From a bacterium (GTDB taxonomy: Bacteria > RBG-13-66-14): DNA of 42,649 nucleotides. Location: assembly GCA_035528375.1 (NCBI GenBank), contig DATKYS010000079.1, positions 1 through 42,649 on the forward strand, read 5' to 3'. How positions within the stretch are numbered: the stretch's first letter is position 1; each line of letters starts with the position of its first letter. A model generated the notes under the pieces. That model did no database searches. It was not told where the DNA came from and saw nothing but the letters and a program-made list of their open reading frames with translations. The translations under genes and the position numbers were made by a program. Shown piece by piece: positions 12,025-38,888 of the stretch.

Positions 12025-12432
12025 TTGAGAGAGCAGCTGCGTCTGGTGGCTAAGCTGCAAGAAATGGATCACCTGCTACACCGCCTGGGCCACGCCCTGG
12101 AGGATCTACGCAACGAGGGTCTGTCCGACGACGAGATCCGCGCGATCAGCATGGAGCTGGAACAGATCGCCACGGGCAAGGACGAAATGAAGGACAAGAT
12201 CAAACGCGATCTTCTTGTCCACTACCAGCGCTTCTACCAGCGTCACAACCTGAACGCCGTGTCCAAGATGCTGGGCGGAGTGTGCCAATCCTGCCACGTC
12301 ACCGTTCCCAGCGGTAGAGCCCTGTTGGTGCGTCGTGGAGAAACCCTCGAGTTCTGCGAGAACTGCGGCGCCATCCTCATCTACGAGGAGGAGAAGCAGG
12401 CCCCGCCCGCGGGTCGGGGCGGATCGGCTTGA
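12025..12432 (+). CDS. C4-type zinc-ribbon protein
   Basis: The 135-residue protein has an N-terminal helical, probably coiled-coil half and a C-terminal zinc ribbon with CQSC and CENC pairs (about residues 90-93 and 112-115). This is the layout of zf-RING_7/COG1579-like proteins, but shorter than the usual 240 residues. Members are thought to bind nucleic acid or act as scaffolds; the role is not established. TTG at 12025 follows AAGGGGG with a 4-nt gap. The last bases, including the TGA, are shared with the -35 box of the next promoter (12429-12434), so the leuS transcription unit starts inside this gene's end. Being just upstream of leuS may be incidental. Confidence 0.75.
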   Translation: MREQLRLVAKLQEMDHLLHRLGHALEDLRNEGLSDDEIRAISMELEQIATGKDEMKDKIKRDLLVHYQRFYQRHNLNAVSKMLGGVCQSCHVTVPSGRALLVRRGETLEFCENCGAILIYEEEKQAPPAGRGGSA

Positions 12433-12457
12433 CAAACGCCGGACCGTGACCTATATT
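12429..12457 (+). promoter_or_regulatory. Strong sigma-70 promoter of the leuS leader
   Basis: A perfect -35 TTGACA (12429-12434), a 17-nt spacer and -10 TATATT (12452-12457) predict a start near 12464. The same combination, TTGACA-17-TATATT, occurs upstream of thrS at 31375-31403. The -35 overlaps the zinc-ribbon stop codon. Confidence 0.8.
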
Positions 12458-12524
12458 TTACCGGGGCATAACTCGCTTCGCTTCGTTTCACCGGCCGTTT
12501 GCCGGAGGTTTTCGGGAGTTACCG

Positions 12525-12632
12525 ATGATGATGGAGAACCGTTTCCAGATGTACCGCGAGCGTCGTCACGGAGCGCACCATTCGTCTTCGGTGAGCCCGC
12601 TTACTCTCGCCTTGGAAAGGCGGCAAGGGTAG
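12525..12632 (+). CDS. Putative leuS leader peptide, 35 aa
   Basis: An ORF of 35 codons starts with three consecutive ATG codons (12525, 12528, 12531) after a GGGAG at 12514-12518 and ends at TAG 12630-12632. Near its end it has three Leu codons in five: CTT ACT CTC GCC TTG (12600-12614), giving P-L-T-L-A-L-E. CTT and TTG are uncommon Leu codons in this GC-rich genome, which favours stalling when charged tRNA-Leu is scarce. The Leu codons and the stop codon fall inside a hairpin (12597-12635) that competes with downstream structures. The ORF lies between a strong promoter and an intrinsic terminator just before leuS. Translation is inferred from layout; no homologue is known to me. Confidence 0.55.
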   Translation: MMMENRFQMYRERRHGAHHSSSVSPLTLALERRQG

Positions 12633-12680
12633 CGGGATAACGTTCTACACGAGACCCGCGCCACTGGACGCGGGTTTTTT
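12597..12680 (+). promoter_or_regulatory. Attenuator before leuS: hairpin, antiterminator and terminator
   Basis: Segment 1 (CCGCTTAC 12597-12604, CGCCTT 12608-12613) pairs with segment 2 (AAGGCG 12617-12622, GTAGCGG 12629-12635). Part of segment 2, GCGGG 12632-12636, can instead pair with CCCGC 12655-12659 (segment 3). Segment 3 also forms the terminator ACCCGCG (12654-12660) with CGCGGGT (12669-12675), followed by T to 12680. A ribosome stalled on the Leu codons would cover segment 1 and favour the 2:3 antiterminator. A ribosome reaching TAG would cover segment 2 and favour termination. No T-box UGGN core is present. Confidence 0.6.
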
Positions 12681-12731
12681 ACTACCGCTGTAGATTACTG
12701 CTTCGCCGTCGCAGACTTGAGGAGTTTTTCT

Positions 12732-15215
12732 ATGACCGAGCCGTACAGGCCCAAAGACGTGGAAGCTAAGTGGCTGGACCGTTGGGACACGGGTTTCTGC
12801 CGCTTCGCGCGCCCCGATCGCCCCCTCATCGGCCAAAGGCCCAAATACTACGTCCTGGACATGTTCCCCTACCCCTCGGGGACGCTCCACATGGGCCACG
12901 CCCGTAACTACTCCATCGGGGACGTCATCGCCCGTTACCGCCACCGCCGTGGGTACGAGGTGCTGCACCCCATGGGCTGGGACGCCTTCGGGCTGCCCGC
13001 GGAGAACGCCGCCATCAAACACGGCACCGACCCCGACGAGTGGACGCGGGCGAACATCGCCTCCTTCAAGCAGGCCATGCGGCGGATCGGCATCCCCTAC
13101 AACTGGGACCGCGAGGTGGACACCTCGAAGCCGGACTACTACCGCTGGACCCAGTGGCTGTTCCTGAAATTGTTCGAGATGGGGCTGGTGGAGCGCAAGG
13201 AGAGCTCCGCCAACTGGTGCCCGAGCTGCCGGACGGTGCTGGCCAACGAGCAGGTCGTGGGCGGCCGCTGCGAGCGGTGTAAGGACGAGGTGACGCAGAA
13301 GGTCCTGGAACAGTGGTTCTTCAAAATCACCGACTACGCCCAGGAGCTCCTGGACGATCTGGACATCCTGGAGGACTGGCCCGCCGAGGTGAGGACCATG
13401 CAGCGGAACTGGATCGGCCGCTCCGAGGGGGTCGAGTTCGACCTGCGCGTCGAAGGCTTCGGCGAGCCCTTCGGAGTTTTCACCACCCGGGTGGACACCG
13501 TTTACGGGATGACCTACGTGGTGCTGGCCCCTGAGCACCCGCTGGTGCGGCGCCTGGTCGCGGGGACGGAGCGGGAGGCCGAGGTCGGCGCCTTCGTGGA
13601 CCGGGTTTTGAACCAGGACCGCTTCCTGCGCGCCGCCGACGAGACGGAAAAAGAAGGTGTCTTCACCGGGCGCCACGCGGTCAATCCCGTCAACGGGAAA
13701 CGGGTGCCCGTCTGGGTGGCCAACTACGTCCTGTTGGAGTACGGCACCGGCATCGTCATGGCCGTGCCGGCCCACGACACCCGCGACTTCGCCTTCGCCA
13801 GGAAGTACGGCCTGGAAATTCTGCCGGTCGTCATGCCCCCCGGGGAGATCCTGACGGCCGACACGATGACGGACGCCTATGTCCTGCCTGGGATTTTGGC
13901 CGACTCGGGCCCCTTCGACGGCCGGACGTCCGCCGAGGCGGTGGACGGCATCGCCGACATGATGGAGGCCGGGGGCTACGGCCGCCGGCGGGTGAACTAC
14001 CGCCTGCGCGACTGGTGCATCTCGCGCCAGCGTTACTGGGGCACGCCCATCCCCCTTATCCACTGCGAGAAGTGCGGCGTGGTTCCCGTGCCCTACGACG
14101 ACCTGCCGGTGCTCCTGCCCCGCATCGTGAACTTCCGGCCCAAGGGCCACCCGCCGCTGGCCGAGGCGGAGGACTGGGTCCGCGTGAAGTGCCCGAAGTG
14201 CGGCGGCCCGGGGCGGCGCGAGGTCGAGACAATGGACACCTTCGTGGACAGCTCCTGGTACTTCCTGCGCTACGCCAGCCAACCGACGGACCGGCCCTTC
14301 GACAAAAAAACCGTGGACCGCTGGCTGCCCGTGGACACCTACATCGGCGGCATCACGCACGCCATCATGCACCTGATGTACGCCCGTTTCTTCGCCAAGG
14401 CGCTGCGCGACGCGGGGTTGCTATCCTTCTCCGAGCCGTTCACCCGCCTCTTTACCCAGGGCATGGTGACCCTGGGCGGAAAGGCCATGAGCAAGAGCCG
14501 GGGCAACACGGTGGGCATCGAGGACATCACCGGGCGCTACGGCGCCGACACGGGGCGGATGTTCACCCTCTTCGCCACGCCGCCCGACAAGGAGATGGAG
14601 TGGACCGAGGAGGGAGTGGAGGGGGTGTACCGCTTCCTGGGCCGCGTCTGGCGGCTCTTCGACGGCCGGTGGCGGTTGACGAGCTTCGATTACGCCCCCG
14701 CGTCGCTCTCCGGGGCGCTCCGTGAGTTGCACCGCAAACGCCACGCCACGGTGAAGAAGTTCACCGAGGACATCGAGCGCATCCACTTCAACACGGCCAT
14801 CGCGGCGGCCATGGAGCTGGTCAACGACATATACGCCCTGGAAACAGCTGGGGGCATCCCCGACGGGGCGCACACGGTGGTCGCCGCCTGCCTGCGCGAC
14901 CTAGTGGACGTCCTGGCACCCATCGCCCCCTTCATCTGCGAGGAACTGAACGGGCGCTTCGGCGAAAAAGAGTCGGTCCACGACCGCCCCTGGCCCGAGT
15001 GGGATTCCAGCGCCCTGGAGGTGGAGTCGGTGATGCTGGCGGTGCAGATAAACGGAAAAATCCGCGGGCAGATAACAGTCTCCGCAGAGGCCGGTGATGA
15101 CGAGATTCGCAATGCCGTCTTCGGGATGGAAAACATTGCACGCTACACCGACGGCAAAGTTCTCAAGAAATTCATCGTCGTACCCGGGCGGCTGGTGTCC
15201 ATCGTGGTCCAGTGA
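12732..15215 (+). CDS. leuS: Leucyl-tRNA synthetase
   Basis: This full-length class I synthetase (827 residues) charges tRNA-Leu. The ATP-site motif HMGH is at 53-56. The second signature reads AMSKS (585-589), with Ala in place of the first Lys of KMSKS. Zinc-type Cys pairs occur near 160-185 (CPSC, CERC) and near 440-490 (CEKC, CPKC). The editing domain lies between, and the C terminus has the usual [11 protein letters not shown] segment. ATG 12732 follows a GAGGAG about 7 nt upstream. It is the first full-size gene after a strong promoter, leader peptide and attenuator, so its expression is probably tied to leucyl-tRNA supply. A 139-bp gap without clear signals separates it from the next gene. 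Confidence 0.97.
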
Positions 15216-31757: not shown

Positions 31758-33713
31758 GTGCCTTCTGACAAAAACGCAGTCCGCCTCCGTTTTCCCGACG
31801 GCTCGGTCAAGGGCTACCCCGAGGGCGTCCGTCCACTGGACATCGCCCTGGAGATTAGCCCGGGCCTTGCCCGCGCGGCGGTGGGCTCTCTCATTGGTGA
31901 TTTACTCTGGGACCTGAACCGTCCGCTCCCCGCCGGGGAGCACGACTTCCGGCTGGTGACCTTTGACGACCCCGAGGGCCGGGAATTTTACCGGCACACG
32001 GCGGCGCACGTCCTGGCCACGGCGGTGCAGGCGCTCTACCCGGAGGCCCGCTTCGGCATCGGCCCCGCCATCGAAAACGGCTTCTACTACGATTTTCTGG
32101 TGGAAAAGCCTTTCACCGATGACGACCTGGCCGCCATCGAGGACAAGATGCGGGAGATCATCAAGGCCGACCTGCCCCTCGTGCGTCGGGTCGTCTCCCG
32201 GGAAGAGGCGCGGGCCGAGATGGAGCGCCGGGGCGAGTTGCTGAAAGTCGAGCTCATAGACGAACTGCCCCCCGAGGCAGAGGTGACCTTCTATTCAGAC
32301 GGTGACTTCGTGGACCTGTGCAAGGGGCCGCACCTGCCCTCCACGGGGCGGCTCGGCGTGGTCAAGCTCCTGTCGGTGGCCGGCGCGTACTGGCGCGGCG
32401 ACGAGCGGAGACCCATGCTCTCGCGCATCTACGGCGCGGCCTTTCCGAAAAAGAAGCAGCTCGACGAGTTCCTGGAGGGCATCGAGGAAGCCAAGCGGCG
32501 CGACCACCGCAAGCTGGGCGCCGAGATGGAACTATTCTCCATCGCCGAAAACTACGGCCCGGGGTTGATCCTCTACCACCCCGCCGGGGCGACGCTGCAC
32601 TACGAGATAGAAAAGCTGGCGCACGAGATGCACCGCGAGCGCGGCTACGATCTGGTCCACACGCCCCACGTCTTCCGTACCGAACTTTGGAAAATGTCGG
32701 GTCACTACGACCACTACAAGGACAACATGTTCTTCGCCCGACTGGGAAGCGGCGAGGCGGAATACGCCGTCAAGCCGATGAACTGCCCGGGGCACGTGCT
32801 CATCTACTCCCACGGCCTGCACTCCTACCGGGAGCTGCCCGTCCGCTATTACGAGTTCGGTCACGTGTACCGCAACGAGATGTCGGGCGTGCTGCACGGC
32901 CTGATGCGCGTGCGGGGCTTCACCATTGACGACGCCCACATCTTCTGCACGCCGGAGCAGCTCGAGGACGAAATCGTCGGGGTCATCCGTTTCGCCCAGG
33001 ACTTCATGGGCGTCTTCGGCCTGCCGATGAGCTACGCCCTGGCGACGAGGCCGCCGGACGCCATGGGGTCCGCGGAAATTTGGGACCAGGCCACGGTCGC
33101 CCTGGAGCACGCCCTGGCACGGCTCGGGGTGCCCTACGTCGTGGATTCGGGCGGCGGCGCCTTCTACGGCCCGAAGATAGACATCAACGTCACCGACGCC
33201 CTGGGCCGCAAGTGGCAGACGACGACCTGCCAGGTGGACTTCAACTTCCCCGAGCGGTTCGATCTGGACTACGTGGGGGAGGACGGCGCCCGGCACCGGG
33301 TGGTCATGGTGCACCGGGCGGTCCTGGGGAGCTTCGAGCGGTTCATCGGCGTGCTCATCGAGCACTTCGCGGGGAATTTCCCGCTCTGGCTCGCCCCGGA
33401 ACAAGTTCGAGTATTGCCGATTACCTCGGACGTAAACGACTACGCCCACGAGGTGTTGGACAAATTCACCAGAGCGGGGTTTAGGGCGAAGATAGATGAC
33501 AGCAACCAAAAGCTGAGCATTAAGATAGCTAAAGCAACTGAAGCCAGGGTAAACTACATGGCTATCTGTGGTCGTGTGGAAAAACAGGAAAAAGGCGTTT
33601 CATTGCGGAGACACGACGGAAAAAACACGCGCTCTAGCGTGGAGGTCGCCATCGAGTTCCTCCAGCGTGAAATTGACGCCTACCGAAGCGGAGGATGGGC
33701 TGTTACTGCGTAA
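31758..33713 (+). CDS. thrS: Threonyl-tRNA synthetase with a replaced C-terminal domain
   Basis: This 651-residue class II synthetase has full length and order: TGS domain (1-65), editing domain with H80-x3-H84 (HTAAH) and the CKGPHLPSTG motif, catalytic core, and anticodon-binding domain from about residue 550. GTG 31758 has AAGGAG at 5 nt. From about 33403 to the stop, composition changes sharply. I counted 42% and 45% G+C in the lines 33481-33540 and 33541-33600, against 70% in 33241-33300, and AT-ending codons become common. A second, host-like (65% G+C) anticodon-binding domain lies downstream at 33763-34074. So the last 100 codons appear to have been swapped for foreign sequence; the enzyme is still complete. 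Confidence 0.95.
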   Translation: MPSDKNAVRLRFPDGSVKGYPEGVRPLDIALEISPGLARAAVGSLIGDLLWDLNRPLPAGEHDFRLVTFDDPEGREFYRHTAAHVLATAVQALYPEARFGIGPAIENGFYYDFLVEKPFTDDDLAAIEDKMREIIKADLPLVRRVVSREEARAEMERRGELLKVELIDELPPEAEVTFYSDGDFVDLCKGPHLPSTGRLGVVKLLSVAGAYWRGDERRPMLSRIYGAAFPKKKQLDEFLEGIEEAKRRDHRKLGAEMELFSIAENYGPGLILYHPAGATLHYEIEKLAHEMHRERGYDLVHTPHVFRTELWKMSGHYDHYKDNMFFARLGSGEAEYAVKPMNCPGHVLIYSHGLHSYRELPVRYYEFGHVYRNEMSGVLHGLMRVRGFTIDDAHIFCTPEQLEDEIVGVIRFAQDFMGVFGLPMSYALATRPPDAMGSAEIWDQATVALEHALARLGVPYVVDSGGGAFYGPKIDINVTDALGRKWQTTTCQVDFNFPERFDLDYVGEDGARHRVVMVHRAVLGSFERFIGVLIEHFAGNFPLWLAPEQVRVLPITSDVNDYAHEVLDKFTRAGFRAKIDDSNQKLSIKIAKATEARVNYMAICGRVEKQEKGVSLRRHDGKNTRSSVEVAIEFLQREIDAYRSGGWAVTA

Positions 33714-33725
33714 TCCTCGAAATTT

Positions 33726-33762
33726 CGGCCGAAGGCCGGCTTGCCCTCCCTAGAAGGGAGGG
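33726..33762. repeat. Two adjacent hairpins at the thrS 3' junction
   Basis: CGGCC-GAA-GGCCG (33726-33738) and CCCTCCCT-AGA-AGGGAGGG (33744-33762, perfect 8-bp arms) fill the gap between the foreign thrS end and the displaced domain ORF. The second hairpin's right arm is the only ribosome-site-like sequence before ATG 33763. Confidence 0.7.
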
Positions 33763-34074
33763 ATGGGAGGGTTGAAGCGCGTGCTGCCGGTGGCGGAGGA
33801 GTTTCTCGAATACGCGGAAAAAGTGGCGAACGAGTTCAGGGAAAAGGGGTTGCGCGTCCGCGTGGACGCGAAGGATTCGAAGCTCGGGGCGAAGATCGCC
33901 GTGGCGGAGACGGCCAAGGTCAAGTACATCGTCGTCGTCGGGAAGGCCGAGGCGGAGGCCGGGGACATAAACCTGCGGCCGCACGGCAAAAAGGCGTTCA
34001 ACATGAGCCTTTCCGAGGCGGTAGACGAGCTGGTGAAGGAAAACGACGGGCGTCTGCTGGCCGGTCGGTGGTGA
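33763..34074 (+). CDS. Displaced ThrRS anticodon-binding domain (remnant or free domain)
   Basis: This 103-residue ORF aligns over its whole length with the C-terminal domain of ThrRS just upstream. KRVLPVAEEFLEYAEKVANE corresponds to VRVLPITSDVNDYAHEVLDK, and KLGAKIAVAETAKVKYIVVV to KLSIKIAKATEARVNYMAIC. The alignment begins exactly at the R-V-L-P of the domain boundary. Its base composition (65% G+C in 33841-33900) is that of the host, unlike the domain now attached to thrS. The simplest reading is that it is the original thrS 3' end, cut off when a foreign 3' segment was inserted. ATG 33763 has an AGGGAGGG immediately upstream, inside a hairpin, so expression is uncertain. It may be a pseudogene fragment. 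Confidence 0.75.
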   Translation: MGGLKRVLPVAEEFLEYAEKVANEFREKGLRVRVDAKDSKLGAKIAVAETAKVKYIVVVGKAEAEAGDINLRPHGKKAFNMSLSEAVDELVKENDGRLLAGRW

Positions 34075-34168
34075 CCGACCGGCGTCCGGAGCGGACGCAC
34101 GGCCGCACTGTGCATTTTTACCCGAGGGGATCGGGCTCGACCCCGGTCGGGCGGCCGGTTTATTTCAT

Positions 34169-34198
34169 TTGACTTGCCGCGTGTATTCATGCTATAAA
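34169..34198 (+). promoter_or_regulatory. Predicted promoter of the infC operon
   Basis: TTGACT (34169-34174), an 18-nt spacer and TATAAA (34193-34198) predict a start near 34205, giving a leader of about 30 nt before infC. Confidence 0.7.
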
Positions 34199-34233
34199 AG
34201 CGCGGCTCCGCTTGAGGTTGCCGGAGGTGTTCC

Positions 34234-34770
34234 ATAGCTAAAGACCAATCTCGCGTCAATGAGCGGATACGCGTCCGCGAAGTGCGGGTGGTGGATGAGG
34301 AGGGCACACAGGTCGGCGTAATGCGCACCCTGGACGCCCTCGACCTGGCCCGGAGCAAGGGGCTGGACTTGGTGGAGGTGGCCCCCAACGGCCGACCGCC
34401 TGTCTGCCGGATAATGAACTATGGGAAGTACCTCTACCAGCAGTCGAAGCGGGAACACGCGGCACGGAAGAAACAGCGGAACTTTTCGGTCAAAGAGATA
34501 AAGCTGAGGCCCAAGACCGGCGAGCACGACTTCACCTTCAAGCTCCGCCACATCGAGGAATTCCTGGCGAAGCTCAACAAGGTGAAGGTCACCATCCTCT
34601 TCCGCGGTCGTGAGCGGACGCACCCCGAGATAGGGGAGAGGATTCTCGCCCGGATAGCGGAATATTTCGGCGAGCGGGTGGTGGTCGAGCAACCGGCCCG
34701 GTTCGAGGGTCGCAATATGACGATGGTCCTGCTCCCCGGAGAAATGTTCAAAGAAGCGGCCAAGACCTAA
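34234..34770 (+). CDS. infC: Translation initiation factor IF-3 with an ATA start codon
   Basis: This 178-residue protein is full-length IF-3. The N domain begins with the standard AKDQSRVNERIR segment and contains GLDLVEVAPNGRPPVCRIMN. A basic linker and the C domain follow (KLRHIEEFLAKLNKVKVTIL, FRGRE). IF-3 binds the 30S subunit and checks start codons. No ATG, GTG or TTG lies in frame between the stop at 34213 and codon 34234, and the conserved sequence begins at ATA 34234, which has GGAGGTG 4 nt upstream. E. coli infC uses the rare ATT start for autoregulation, and ATA here would serve the same purpose. The next usual start (GTG 34282) would remove conserved residues. rpmI and rplT follow. 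Confidence 0.9.
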   Translation: MAKDQSRVNERIRVREVRVVDEEGTQVGVMRTLDALDLARSKGLDLVEVAPNGRPPVCRIMNYGKYLYQQSKREHAARKKQRNFSVKEIKLRPKTGEHDFTFKLRHIEEFLAKLNKVKVTILFRGRERTHPEIGERILARIAEYFGERVVVEQPARFEGRNMTMVLLPGEMFKEAAKT

Positions 34771-34848
34771 CCGACGAGGTTTCAACTCCGAGAGTCGTAC
34801 CCGTTCAGCCACTCATCATGCCAAGTCCTAATCTGCGAGGTTTCAACG

Positions 34849-35046
34849 TTGCCGAAGATGAAAACGATAAAGGGCGCGGCCAAGCGTTTCAAGCCCACGG
34901 CCACGGGCAAGCTCAAACGCCACAAGGCGCTCTTCAACCACATCCTGACCAAGAAATCCGCCAACCGCAAACGGCGTCTGAGCCAGAGCACCCTGGTGAC
35001 CACCCGGGGGGACGTCAAGCGGATCAAACGGATGCTCGGTATATAG
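34849..35046 (+). CDS. rpmI: Ribosomal protein bL35
   Basis: The 65-residue basic protein matches bL35 in full ([20 protein letters not shown] at the start). It belongs to the large ribosomal subunit. It starts at TTG 34849 with GAGG about 8 nt upstream; the internal ATG would drop conserved residues. The stretch around its ribosome site, CGAGGTTTCAAC (34836-34847), also occurs at 34775-34786 just after infC, suggesting a small duplication. The order infC-rpmI-rplT is conserved in bacteria. Confidence 0.96.
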
Positions 35047-35056
35047 AGGTGCCGGT

Positions 35057-35404
35057 ATGCCCCGAGTGAAAAACAACGTCGCCTCCCGCCGCCGTCGGAA
35101 GAAGGTCCTGGCGCAGGCCAAGGGCTATCAGCACGGCCGGAGCCGGCTGATTACCACCGCACAGGACGCCGTCCGGAGGGCGCTGCAGTACGCCTACCGT
35201 GACCGCCGGAAGAAGAAGGGGCATTTCCGCCGCCTGTGGATAGCCCGCATCAACGCCGGCGTCCGGGAGCACGGCATGAGTTACTCGCGATTTATCAACG
35301 GTCTGGCCAAGGCGGACGTCCACCTCGACCGGAAAATCTTGGCAGACCTGGCCGCCACCGATCCGAAGGCGCTGGAGCATCTGGTCAAGGTAGCCAAGGG
35401 TTAA
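35057..35404 (+). CDS. rplT: Ribosomal protein bL20
   Basis: This 115-residue basic protein is standard bL20 ([20 protein letters not shown] at the start), an assembly protein of the 50S subunit. In several bacteria bL20 also represses its own operon by binding the leader RNA. No such structure is evident in the short leader here. ATG 35057 lies 10 bp after the rpmI stop with a GAGGTG site. The terminator at 35449 follows its stop by 45 bp and separates it from pheS. Confidence 0.97.
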
Positions 35405-35448
35405 GATATCGTCGGTGGACGCCCGGCTGTGGCCTGAAAAGCACGGCC

Positions 35449-35479
35449 CGGGCCCGCGGTTGCCGTGGGCCCGTTTTTT
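35449..35479 (+). terminator. Strong intrinsic terminator or attenuator between rplT and pheS
   Basis: CGGGCCCGCGG (35449-35459) pairs with CCGTGGGCCCG (35463-35473) over 11 bp with one G-T pair and a 3-nt loop, followed by six T. It ends 15 bp before the pheS start. GCCCGG at 35421-35426 can pair with CCGGGC at 35448-35453 as an alternative structure, but no Phe-rich leader peptide fits in the 45 bp available. Confidence 0.85.
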
Positions 35480-35494
35480 CAACCGGACGTGTAT

Positions 35495-36505
35495 GTGCTG
35501 AAGAATCTGGAATACATCGAGGTGGACGCGAAGCGGCGGATTGCGGCCGCTTCGGACCCCAAGAGCATCGAGGACCTGCGCGTCGAGTTCCTCGGCCGCA
35601 AGGGTAAGCTCACCGAGCTCCTGCGCCGCCTGGGCAATCTCAGCCCCGAGGAGAGGCCCCGGGCCGGGGCCCGGGCCAACGAGGTGAAGACCGCCATCCA
35701 GCAGGCCCTGACCGCCCGCACCGCCGAGCTCGCCGCCGGGGAGAAACGGGAGCCCCTTCTCGACTACACCCTCCCCGGGCGGAAGGTGGAGGTTTACCGG
35801 CGACACCCCGTGAACCAGGTCATCGAGGAACTTGTCTTCATCTTCTGCGACCTGGGGTTCAGCGTGGCCGAGGGACCGCTCATCGAGACGGAGCATTACA
35901 ACTTCGACGCCTTGAACACCCCGCCGGACCACCCGGCGCGCGACGAGAAGGACACCCTCTTCCTGCGCGACTTCCCGCTGCTGCTACGGACCGAGACCAG
36001 CCCGGTCCAGGTGCGAACGCTGGAGAGAACGAGGCCGCCCGTGCGCATCATCGCTCCGGGGCGCTGCTACCGCAACGACACCGCCGACGCCCGCCACCAC
36101 CCCGTCTTCCACCAGATAGAGGGTCTGTGGGTGGACGAGGGCGTTTCCTTCGCGCACCTGAAGGGAATCCTGCTGGAGTTCGCAAAAAGCCTGTTCGGCC
36201 CCGGGGCGCAGGTGCGCTTCCGGCCTCACTTCTTCCCCTTCACCGAGCCCTCGGCGGAGATAGAGGCCACCTGCCCCGCGTGCGCCGGCAACGGCTGCAA
36301 GACCTGCTCCGGCACGGGCTGGATCGAGCTGGGCGGGGCGGGGATGGTGGACCCCGCGGTGATCGCGCCCCTGGGGATAGACCCGGAAATTTACACCGGC
36401 TTCGCCTTCGGCATCGGCCCCGAGAGAATAGCCATGGTGCGCTACGGCGTCAGCGACATCCGGCTGTTCTACGAGAACGACCTGCGCTTCCTGCGGCAGT
36501 TTTAA
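35495..36505 (+). CDS. pheS: Phenylalanyl-tRNA synthetase alpha subunit
   Basis: The 336-residue class II catalytic subunit has the expected length and order. An N-terminal coiled coil (about 1-85) is followed by the core with GRCYRNDTADARHHPVFHQI (motif 2 region), FRPHFFPFTEPSAEI, a Cys-rich loop CPACAGNGCKTC near 260-275, and the motif 3 segment GFAFGIGPERIAM. It pairs with PheT to charge tRNA-Phe. GTG 35495 gives the standard M-L-K-N-L start; GTG 35489 is two codons earlier. The start follows a strong terminator by 15 bp, so expression depends on read-through or an unseen antitermination event. pheT begins 10 bp after its stop. Confidence 0.96.
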   Translation: MLKNLEYIEVDAKRRIAAASDPKSIEDLRVEFLGRKGKLTELLRRLGNLSPEERPRAGARANEVKTAIQQALTARTAELAAGEKREPLLDYTLPGRKVEVYRRHPVNQVIEELVFIFCDLGFSVAEGPLIETEHYNFDALNTPPDHPARDEKDTLFLRDFPLLLRTETSPVQVRTLERTRPPVRIIAPGRCYRNDTADARHHPVFHQIEGLWVDEGVSFAHLKGILLEFAKSLFGPGAQVRFRPHFFPFTEPSAEIEATCPACAGNGCKTCSGTGWIELGGAGMVDPAVIAPLGIDPEIYTGFAFGIGPERIAMVRYGVSDIRLFYENDLRFLRQF

Positions 36506-36515
36506 AGGTTTTCCC

Positions 36516-38888
36516 GTGAAGCTGAACACCGAGTGGCTCACCGACTACGTCGAGCTGGACGCGCCGCCCGAGAAAATCGCCCGGGCGCTGACCGAGTCCT
36601 GCGCCGTGGCCGAGGCGGTCTACGACCCCTACGCCCACCTGGGTAAAGTGGTCGTCGCCCGCCTGGTCTCCGCCGAACCGCTGGCCGGGTCGGACAAGCT
36701 CTACCGCTGCGACGTTGATTACGGGGAGGGGACGGCGACCGTAATTGCCGGTGCGCCGAACACGAAAGCCTGCGTCGGCAAACTGACGGCCTACGTCCCG
36801 CCGGATACCGTCCTCCCCTTCGGGACCGTGACCGAGCGGGAGCTCTTCGGCGTGACGAGCGCCGGGATGCTGGCCAGCGGCCTCGAACTGGGTCTTTCCG
36901 CCGACCACACCGGCCTTCTCGTTTTGGAAAAAGGTAAGGTCGGTCAGCCTTTAGTGGACCTCTTCGACGTCCCGGCGACCGCGATTATTGACCTGGAAAC
37001 GACGCCGAACCGGCCGGACACCCTGAGCCACCTGGGCCTGGCGCGGCAGCTCGCGGCCGTTATAGGCGGCAGATTTCTCTTCCCCGAACCGGAAATAAAA
37101 CCCGCGGTCGTAGACGACGGTTCGCTGGTCCGCATCGAATGCCCCGAGCTGTGCCGCCGGTACGTGGGACTCGTCGTTCGCGGGGTGAAGGTCGGCCCCA
37201 GCCCCGACTGGCTGACCCGCCGGCTCATCTCCATCGGCCACCGGCCCATCTCCAACATCGTGGATGTGACGAACTACGTCCTGCACGGTCTGGGCCAGCC
37301 GTTGCACACCTTCGATTTGACGAAGCTCGCCGGGGGGCGGATCATCGTCCGCCGCGCAAGCCATGGGGAGGTTATCGTCTCCCTGGACGGCGACGAATGT
37401 CGCCTCACGCCGGAGATGATGGTCATCGCCGACGCCGAGCGCCCGGTGGCCGTGGCCGGTGTGATGGGCGGCCTGGAATCGGGCGTCGTCGCGGAGACGA
37501 CGGACATTTTAATCGAGAGCGCGTGGTTCGAGCCGTCGAGCGTCCGCGCCACGAGCCGGGAGCTGGGGCTGGAATCGTCATCGTCCCACCTCTTCGGGCG
37601 GGGGGCCGACCCGAATCTGGCGCCCGTCGCCGCCCGCTTCGCCGCCGAATTGATAGCTGAAATCGCCGGGGGGACGGTGGACGGATTGCTCCACGACTGC
37701 CACCCCGTTCCGTACAAACCGCCGGAGGTCCTGCTGCGCTGGGGCCGCGTGGGCAAACTCCTCGGCTTCGACGTCACACCGGAGGAGGGGAGGCGGATTC
37801 TCACCGCCCTGGGCTGCGCCCCGGTCACCGAGGATGAGTCCGGCGCGACCTGGACCATCCCGAGCCACCGGCCCGACCTCTCCCGGGAGGTGGACCTGAT
37901 AGAGGAACTGGCCCAGGTGGCGGGCTACGACAACGTGCCGGTGGAGCTTCCGCGCCTGACCGCGGCCCACCTGAACCGGCCCGACCCGCTGATGCCGATG
38001 CACACGGCCCTGGCCGCCGCCGGCTGCCAGGAGGTCCTTACCACCGACTTCGTATCACTGGAAGAGGCGGAGGGGCTCGGATTTTCCGAGAAGGACCTCG
38101 TGGCCGTGAAGAACCCCCTGGACAAGGGGCACCCCTACCTGCGCCCCTCGGGCTTCATCGGCCTGTTGAACGCGGCCCGGCACAACGCCTCCCGCGGCGC
38201 CGAGGATTTGCGCTTCTACGAAATAGCCACCGCCTTCACCGTTTCCGGGAAAGCCCCCGTCGAAGTGAAGCGTCTCTGCGTTCTTCTGGTCGGTGAGCGG
38301 CCCGCCGACGGCTGGCTCACCCGGGCGCGAAACCTCGACTTCTACGACCTGAAGGGCGTGTGCACGGCTCTCCTGGATGCCGTGAAAATCGGCCCCACGG
38401 AGCTCGTCCCGCGAGAGGCGACGGAGGGGACTCCCCTCGAACTGGCGGTCGGTCTGGATGGGACGACCGTGGGCCGACTCCTGCGTTTCGGTGAAAAACT
38501 GCTCGCCGCCTATGACCTGGAGGAACGGGCCGCCTGGGGCCTGGAACTGGACCTCGAACCGCTGCTGCGCCGCGCGGGGGACGTGAAAATCGAGCCGCTA
38601 CCCCTCTACCCACCCGGAACCCGGGATCTGGCGCTCGTCTTTGACGAGGGCGTCCGGCACGCCGATATAGTGGAGGTCATTCGCTCCGCGGGCGGCGGGC
38701 TTTTGGAGGACGTCCGCCTCTTCGACGTCTACGTGGGCAGGCAGGTGGGCGCCGGTAAACGCTCCCTGGCCTACTCCCTCATCTACCGCGCCCCGGACCG
38801 CACGCTGACCGACGAGGAGATTGACGCGGCGCACGAGAGAATCGTAAAAACACTCCGGGAGCGCTTCAGCGCGGAGCTACGGTCTTAG
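36516..38888 (+). CDS. pheT: Phenylalanyl-tRNA synthetase beta subunit
   Basis: This 790-residue protein is full-length PheT. It has the N-terminal EMAP-type tRNA-binding domain (about 40-150), the B3/B4 editing domain, B5, the core-like domain, and the C-terminal ferredoxin-fold anticodon-binding domain (YPPGTRDLALVFDEGVRHAD onward). It forms the alpha2-beta2 enzyme with PheS and removes mischarged Tyr. GTG 36516 lies 10 bp after pheS, with an AAAGG upstream. The C-terminal end reads YRAPDRTLTDEEIDAAHERI, as usual. It closes the thrS-to-pheT translation cluster; the next 169 bp hold only a weak promoter. Confidence 0.97.
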   Translation: MKLNTEWLTDYVELDAPPEKIARALTESCAVAEAVYDPYAHLGKVVVARLVSAEPLAGSDKLYRCDVDYGEGTATVIAGAPNTKACVGKLTAYVPPDTVLPFGTVTERELFGVTSAGMLASGLELGLSADHTGLLVLEKGKVGQPLVDLFDVPATAIIDLETTPNRPDTLSHLGLARQLAAVIGGRFLFPEPEIKPAVVDDGSLVRIECPELCRRYVGLVVRGVKVGPSPDWLTRRLISIGHRPISNIVDVTNYVLHGLGQPLHTFDLTKLAGGRIIVRRASHGEVIVSLDGDECRLTPEMMVIADAERPVAVAGVMGGLESGVVAETTDILIESAWFEPSSVRATSRELGLESSSSHLFGRGADPNLAPVAARFAAELIAEIAGGTVDGLLHDCHPVPYKPPEVLLRWGRVGKLLGFDVTPEEGRRILTALGCAPVTEDESGATWTIPSHRPDLSREVDLIEELAQVAGYDNVPVELPRLTAAHLNRPDPLMPMHTALAAAGCQEVLTTDFVSLEEAEGLGFSEKDLVAVKNPLDKGHPYLRPSGFIGLLNAARHNASRGAEDLRFYEIATAFTVSGKAPVEVKRLCVLLVGERPADGWLTRARNLDFYDLKGVCTALLDAVKIGPTELVPREATEGTPLELAVGLDGTTVGRLLRFGEKLLAAYDLEERAAWGLELDLEPLLRRAGDVKIEPLPLYPPGTRDLALVFDEGVRHADIVEVIRSAGGGLLEDVRLFDVYVGRQVGAGKRSLAYSLIYRAPDRTLTDEEIDAAHERIVKTLRERFSAELRS

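Follow-up and report, generated by a model that had tools for sequence, protein, structure and literature searches.

Here we describe a candidate leader-peptide attenuator upstream of the leucyl-tRNA synthetase gene leuS in an uncultured bacterium (genome G000), found in the window, that is, the whole 42,649-nucleotide stretch analysed (GenBank assembly GCA_035528375.1, contig DATKYS010000079.1). Judged from sequence comparison, the element is very probably (roughly 0.87) a classical ribosome-mediated transcription attenuator responding to charged tRNA-Leu, because an open reading frame (ORF), its Leu codons and a terminator recur before leuS in related genomes, and because the alternative pairings of the switch segments persist despite changes in their sequence. 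An earlier note, made from the window alone, had proposed this reading, which is now supported by the leaders at 9 of the 11 readable leuS starts in the phylum and by the 2:3 and 3:4 segment pairings that they keep. In two other families the same design appears to control ileS, with runs of Ile codons, and valS, with runs of Val codons.

Leader anatomy and the proposed switch

The leader lies between a zinc-ribbon gene, which ends at 12432, and leuS, and the -35 hexamer of its promoter overlaps the final codons of that upstream gene. Its features are as follows.

12429-12457, + strand: sigma-70 type promoter, TTGACA (12429-12434), 17-nt spacer, TATATT (12452-12457); 11/12 consensus bases, 0.1 expected in shuffles
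12459-12494, + strand: one copy of a dispersed, genus-specific repeat, separating the promoter from the leader ORF; G000 has >50 similar places
12514-12518, + strand: Shine-Dalgarno sequence GGGAG of the leader ORF, 6 nt before the ATG
12525-12632, + strand: leader peptide ORF, MMMENRFQMYRERRHGAHHSSSVSPLTLALERRQG and stop, 35 codons; frame and Leu core kept in relatives
12596-12601, + strand: segment 1, CCCGCT, predicted to pair with segment 2 in the ribosome's absence (protector hairpin)
12600-12614, + strand: control codons CTT-ACT-CTC-GCC-TTG (Leu-Thr-Leu-Ala-Leu)
12631-12636, + strand: segment 2, AGCGGG, overlapping the leader stop codon, predicted partner of 1 or 3
12655-12660, + strand: segment 3, CCCGCG, predicted partner of 2 (antiterminator) or 4 (terminator)
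12669-12680, + strand: segment 4, CGCGGG (12669-12674), and T-run of the intrinsic terminator; hairpin -17.2 kcal/mol
12732-15215, + strand: leuS, leucyl-tRNA synthetase, the controlled gene, ATG at 12732; PF13603 Leu editing domain (5e-67), PF00133 and PF08264

The Shine-Dalgarno sequence, the 35-codon ORF with three Leu codons in five, the hairpin enclosing those codons and the stop, and the terminator followed by leuS were all correctly recognised in the earlier note; the promoter is present as well, but calling it perfect overstated a site with 11 of 12 consensus bases. Translation could start at the ATG at 12525, 12528 or 12531 and ends at the TAG at 12630-12632, giving a peptide whose C-terminus reads PLTLALERRQG. 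The three Leu codons, CTT (12600), CTC (12606) and TTG (12612), stand 10, 8 and 6 codons ahead of the stop, and CTT (5%) and TTG (8%) are minor Leu codons in the codon usage of this genome.

The predicted fold of 12585-12685 contains pairing 1:2 together with pairing 3:4, and only 1 of 200 dinucleotide shuffles folded equally well or better (z = -3.5). The terminator stem joins ACCCGCG (12654-12660) to CGCGGGT (12669-12675) and is followed by T. The competing pairing that the note had drawn, GCGGG (12632-12636) with CCCGC (12655-12659), is present with about five contiguous pairs, but its strength is at shuffle level (p = 0.57).

Under the proposed mechanism, the leader would be transcribed from the promoter at 12429-12457 and a ribosome would translate the 35-codon ORF behind RNA polymerase. 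With ample Leu-tRNA-Leu, the ribosome would reach the stop codon at 12630 and cover segment 2, allowing the 3:4 terminator to form and transcription to stop before leuS. With Leu-tRNA-Leu scarce, it would stall on the CTT, CTC and TTG codons at 12600-12614, covering segment 1 and leaving segment 2 free to pair with segment 3, in which case no terminator would form and leuS would be transcribed. Were translation absent, 1:2 and 3:4 would both form and transcription would again stop. We infer that this stalling and termination, the translation of the ORF and the response to leucine actually take place.

The repeat copy at 12459-12494 is an insertion in the leuS leader of G000 that is absent from the leader of its congener G001, and it is therefore not part of the switch. 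The repeat, about 33 nt long and roughly TTTTGCCGGGGCATAACTCGCTTCGCTTCGTTTC, occurs at more than 50 similar places in each of these two genomes and is found in G002 and G003 too (copies in L275-L284); several copies seemingly lie within genes or at gene starts, and some are in tandem.

leuS leaders in related genomes

The phylum sample comprised 14 genomes in five families, with a readable leuS start in 11. By LeuS comparison, the nearest named relatives stand at only about 55%. The window's own family, f1, is represented among these 11 by G000, G001, G003, G004 and G006, the first three forming its own genus, and a second family, f3, by G008, G010, G011 and G013. A leader with a promoter, Leu codons just ahead of the stop and a terminator precedes leuS in nine of the 11 genomes, eight of them recognised by an automatic rule and G006, which narrowly fails that rule, read by eye; leuS of G007 (f2) and of G012 (f5) is without such a leader. 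The rule called for an ORF of 8-65 codons, at least three Leu in six codons near its end and a terminator 10-60 nt past the stop. It selected 8/11 leuS upstream regions in the phylum, 2/99 taken from beyond the phylum and 2/440 dinucleotide shuffles (Fisher exact test for 8/11 against 2/99, p = 1.7e-8, with kindred species counted separately and not independent within a family).

Promoters of the form TTGAC(A/G/C), 17 nt, TATA-like stand before the other eight leaders, and those of the four f1 relatives resemble TTGACA-17-TATATT, with TACATT in G001. The f1 leaders are 22-39 codons long and end in PLTLALQGEQG (G001), ALTLSLTR (G003), RLSLPLLSHA (G004) and RLTLPPTLHG (G006), so that the frame and the core PLTLAL are preserved in G001 and the core reads ALTLSL, RLSLPLL and RLTLPPTL in the others. 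The f3 leaders have 16 codons (MYLKSSRQLVLLLREA, MYLKNSRQLALLLREA, MRNEGCRQLALLLEEA and MLKGCRQLALLLLQEA), with cores LALLL, LVLLL or LALLLL; their transcripts are probably leaderless, because the ATG of each ORF (L017, L019, L021, L025) follows the -10 hexamer by only 6-7 nt. Rare CTA codons fill 9 of the 17 control positions in f3, against a background of 1.7% (p = 2.5e-12). In all nine genomes the Leu codons fall within the last 3-10 codons of the ORF. Outside this core the peptide drifts, G000 and G001 differing by 11 nonsynonymous and 3 synonymous codon changes; free drift of this kind is expected for leader peptides and does not supply independent proof of translation. The ORF, its Leu codons and the alternative helices, whose lack of conservation the earlier note had named as grounds for abandoning its reading, are conserved in all eight relatives.

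A plainer account would make the terminator an ordinary one between the zinc-ribbon gene and leuS, the ORF a product of chance, and the leuS promoter a site further downstream. The upstream gene, ending at 12432, does need a stop, and competing helices form easily in GC-rich spacers, as the p of 0.57 in G000 illustrates. Yet the only promoter-like site that a promoter search found within 12300-12800 is the one that precedes both ORF and terminator, the same order recurs in nine genomes while being so rare elsewhere and in shuffles, and Ile and Val take the place of Leu in the leaders of ileS and valS described below. We consider this account very unlikely.

The switch segments offer a further view of the attenuator. 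They are unrelated in sequence between the window's own genus (GCGGG/CCCGC/GCGGG), the pair G004 and G006 (GACGGC/GCCGTC/GACGGC) and f3 (GCGTCCGCC/GGCGGGCGC/GCCCGCC), and pairings 2:3 and 3:4 are retained throughout. Folding was computed with the ribosomal A site on a control codon and some 12 nt of mRNA downstream of it covered, positions taken from what is generally known of the bacterial ribosome. With the ribosome on a Leu control codon, the RNA up to the 5' arm of the terminator folds as an antiterminator in 9/9 genomes, usually with 5-10 terminator-arm bases paired upstream; in G003 and G006 fewer of these bases are paired when the ribosome sits on the final Leu codon, the antiterminator being already partly hidden. 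With the ribosome on the leader stop codon, the antiterminator is gone or only weak folds remain in the nine leaders. All nine have the terminator, that of G006 with only TTT before GG.

Pairing between the exposed stretch and the terminator arm was also compared with shuffles. Within the own genus it is unexceptional (p = 0.57 in G000, 0.19 in G001, 0.32 in G003), and it is stronger than expected in G004 (p = 0.009), G006 (p = 0.013) and three f3 genomes (p = 0.001-0.003; 0.12 in G013). Combined by Fisher's method, the group medians give p = 0.001 when leuS is taken alone (three lineage groups) and p = 5e-8 over seven lineage-gene groups of leuS, ileS and valS; a blunter shuffle test over the whole spacer was mostly non-significant. 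The geometry by which the antiterminator excludes the terminator is correct in 9/9 genomes, and the pairing is shuffle-significant in G004, G006 and 3/4 f3 genomes, not in the own genus alone. Given the own-genus values of 0.19-0.57, the predicted antiterminator of the window's leader stands on homology of position and logic and not on its own strength.

Self-regulation by aminoacyl-tRNA synthetases and T-boxes are established modes of control at synthetase genes, and they provide precedent for a leader RNA that would sense without translation, either by LeuRS acting on its own leader or by the RNA binding tRNA directly, the ORF being incidental. Against this, covariance-model searches found no T-box in the window, none among the leader's Rfam matches up to E 5 and no significant match in any of the 14 phylum genomes (0/14, with five control genomes giving the expected signal), and the segments are not conserved between genera, yet the ORF, the position of its stop and the cognate codons are. 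Translation-free sensing has, in our estimate, a slim chance of being correct, and the translated attenuator remains our preferred reading.

Other identities were rejected. The covariance-model result rejects the T-box riboswitch, and an Rfam scan of the whole window brought no family to its gathering score. The leader's best Rfam match was sub-threshold: Leu_leader (RF00512), at 12591-12681, with 19 bits where the cut-off is 50 (E = 0.14). Leucine auxotrophy is not claimed as an explanation, because ilvC is present in 11/14 phylum genomes; ilvB and leuA_bact had no match at cut-off in the phylum genomes, with one strong sub-cut-off leuA_bact match in G003 (7% contaminated).

Ile and Val leaders before ileS and valS

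Families f3 and f5 have leaders of the same layout in front of ileS and of valS. The ileS leaders (L187, L189, L190, L192) end in NAIIIIIDLPRSGRLRMP (G008), SAIIIIIDLPRSGRLRMP (G010) and SIIIIIIDLPGSGRLSMP (G011) in f3, and that of G012 in f5 reads MNTFVIIIGNT; the valS leaders (L258, L259, L261) read MPEVLKVAVVVVVSGAPARPR (G010), VEIIKVAVVVVVRGAPARPW (G008) and MSHDVKKVVVDVVVKGPPVATR (G012). Runs of Ile (IIIII) thus mark ileS and runs of Val (VVVVV) mark valS, and since the leaders carry Leu, Ile and Val at leuS, ileS and valS, codon identity tracks the controlled gene. Each has a terminator hairpin 23-28 nt past the stop. A computed stall on the first control codon frees an antiterminator of 6-10 bp, which is lost or much weakened with the ribosome at the stop (p = 0.0015-0.02); in the valS leader of G012, stalling at the final Val codon, near the stop, no longer frees it. 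GTA occupies 9 of 13 valS control positions against a 17% background (p = 5e-5), and ATA shows no significant enrichment at the Ile control positions. In f1, the window's own family, ileS and valS are without such a leader.

These leaders bear on whether the signal is leucine at all. Control might be linked to translation without being leucine-specific, responding to general translation rate or to the Thr or Ser codons that lie among the Leu codons of the f1 core (L-T-L-x-L or L-S-L-P-L). The f3 leuS cores contain neither Thr nor Ser and are rich in rare CTA, and Ile and Val runs replace Leu at ileS and valS. We hold a signal other than leucine to be very improbable, and continue to favour an attenuator that reads Leu codons.

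Elsewhere the search gave little. No cognate codon run with a terminator was found in the leader search at pheS in the phylum, or in those thrS, proS, serS, tyrS, trpS and metG regions that the search covered, for some of which the choice of start was crude. At thrS of G007 (L206), a short upstream ORF, MTYTRTFFLLT, is followed by a terminator-like hairpin and is a possible, weak candidate for a Thr attenuator. In f3 and f5 a strong terminator lies about 70 nt ahead of tyrS (L238, L239, L242, L244), and the product of the gene shortly before it ends in MYYNQ, MYYDQ or MYDYQ; this could be an attenuator that uses the end of that gene, or simply the gene's own terminator. The window itself carries thrS and pheS (Pfam) at 31758-38888, with a 790-aa ORF downstream in the position of pheT, and no cognate leader peptide was seen for them.

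Comparison with known systems

The earlier note had thought that leader-peptide control of leuS in this lineage would be new to its knowledge; such control has precedents in Streptomyces and is new only in this lineage. Attenuators were predicted at leuS of Streptomyces coelicolor and S. avermitilis (Seliverstov et al. 2005, PMC1262725), and RNA-seq of S. lividans (2021) found a leaderless leuS leader, leuL2, with the peptide MRAVRLLLSEPR (PMC8079986), leaderless leader-peptide transcripts being reported for several Streptomyces leaders. The leuL2 system resembles ours in controlling leuS, in a short ORF whose Leu codons lie towards its end, in a U-run terminator and in predicted alternative hairpins, and the f3 leaders, with their ATG so close to the -10 box, look leaderless as well. 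It differs in phylum and sequence, the f1 leaders are longer (22-39 codons), and the leader in G000 has a Shine-Dalgarno sequence and Leu codons that are spaced (LTLAL) instead of forming a run.

The enterobacterial leu operon leader (RF00512) shares the Leu-codon peptide and the alternative segments, but it controls leucine biosynthesis and not leuS, and the leader scores far under its cut-off. In E. coli, the synthetase operon pheST is under leader-peptide attenuation through the peptide PheM; this is likewise a synthetase operon controlled by attenuation, but the residue is Phe and not Leu, and pheS in this phylum had no such leader in our search. Leu-rich leader attenuation has also been studied at the ilv-leu operon of S. 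aureus (PMC5794164). The survey of Naville and Gautheret in 2010 knew leader-peptide systems only from Proteobacteria and Actinobacteria, added a His case in Firmicutes and described switching between T-box and leader peptide at hisS (PMC2965389). For ileS or valS we found no precedent of leader-peptide control in the literature, which is weak evidence of absence, as subscription journals were mostly uncovered.

Novelty lies in the phylum, in T-boxes being apparently absent and in the ileS and valS versions, and the leuS element of the window is of an already known type; the ileS and valS leaders are the more novel finding. The present case extends leader-peptide systems to the synthetase genes of a phylum that is unrelated and uncultured, and the tracking of synthetase by codon identity (Leu, Ile, Val) makes the prediction testable gene by gene. 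The T-box of leuS in Firmicutes serves the same gene and the same signal, uncharged tRNA-Leu, but there the RNA senses the tRNA directly; the apparent absence of T-boxes alongside leader peptides is what one would expect were the two sensing systems to substitute for each other. We lean towards the view that this phylum, with no detectable T-box, attenuates leuS, ileS and valS through leaders built on each enzyme's own residue, that the ileS and valS forms are described here for the first time, and that the leuS form is independent of, or very remote from, that of Streptomyces.
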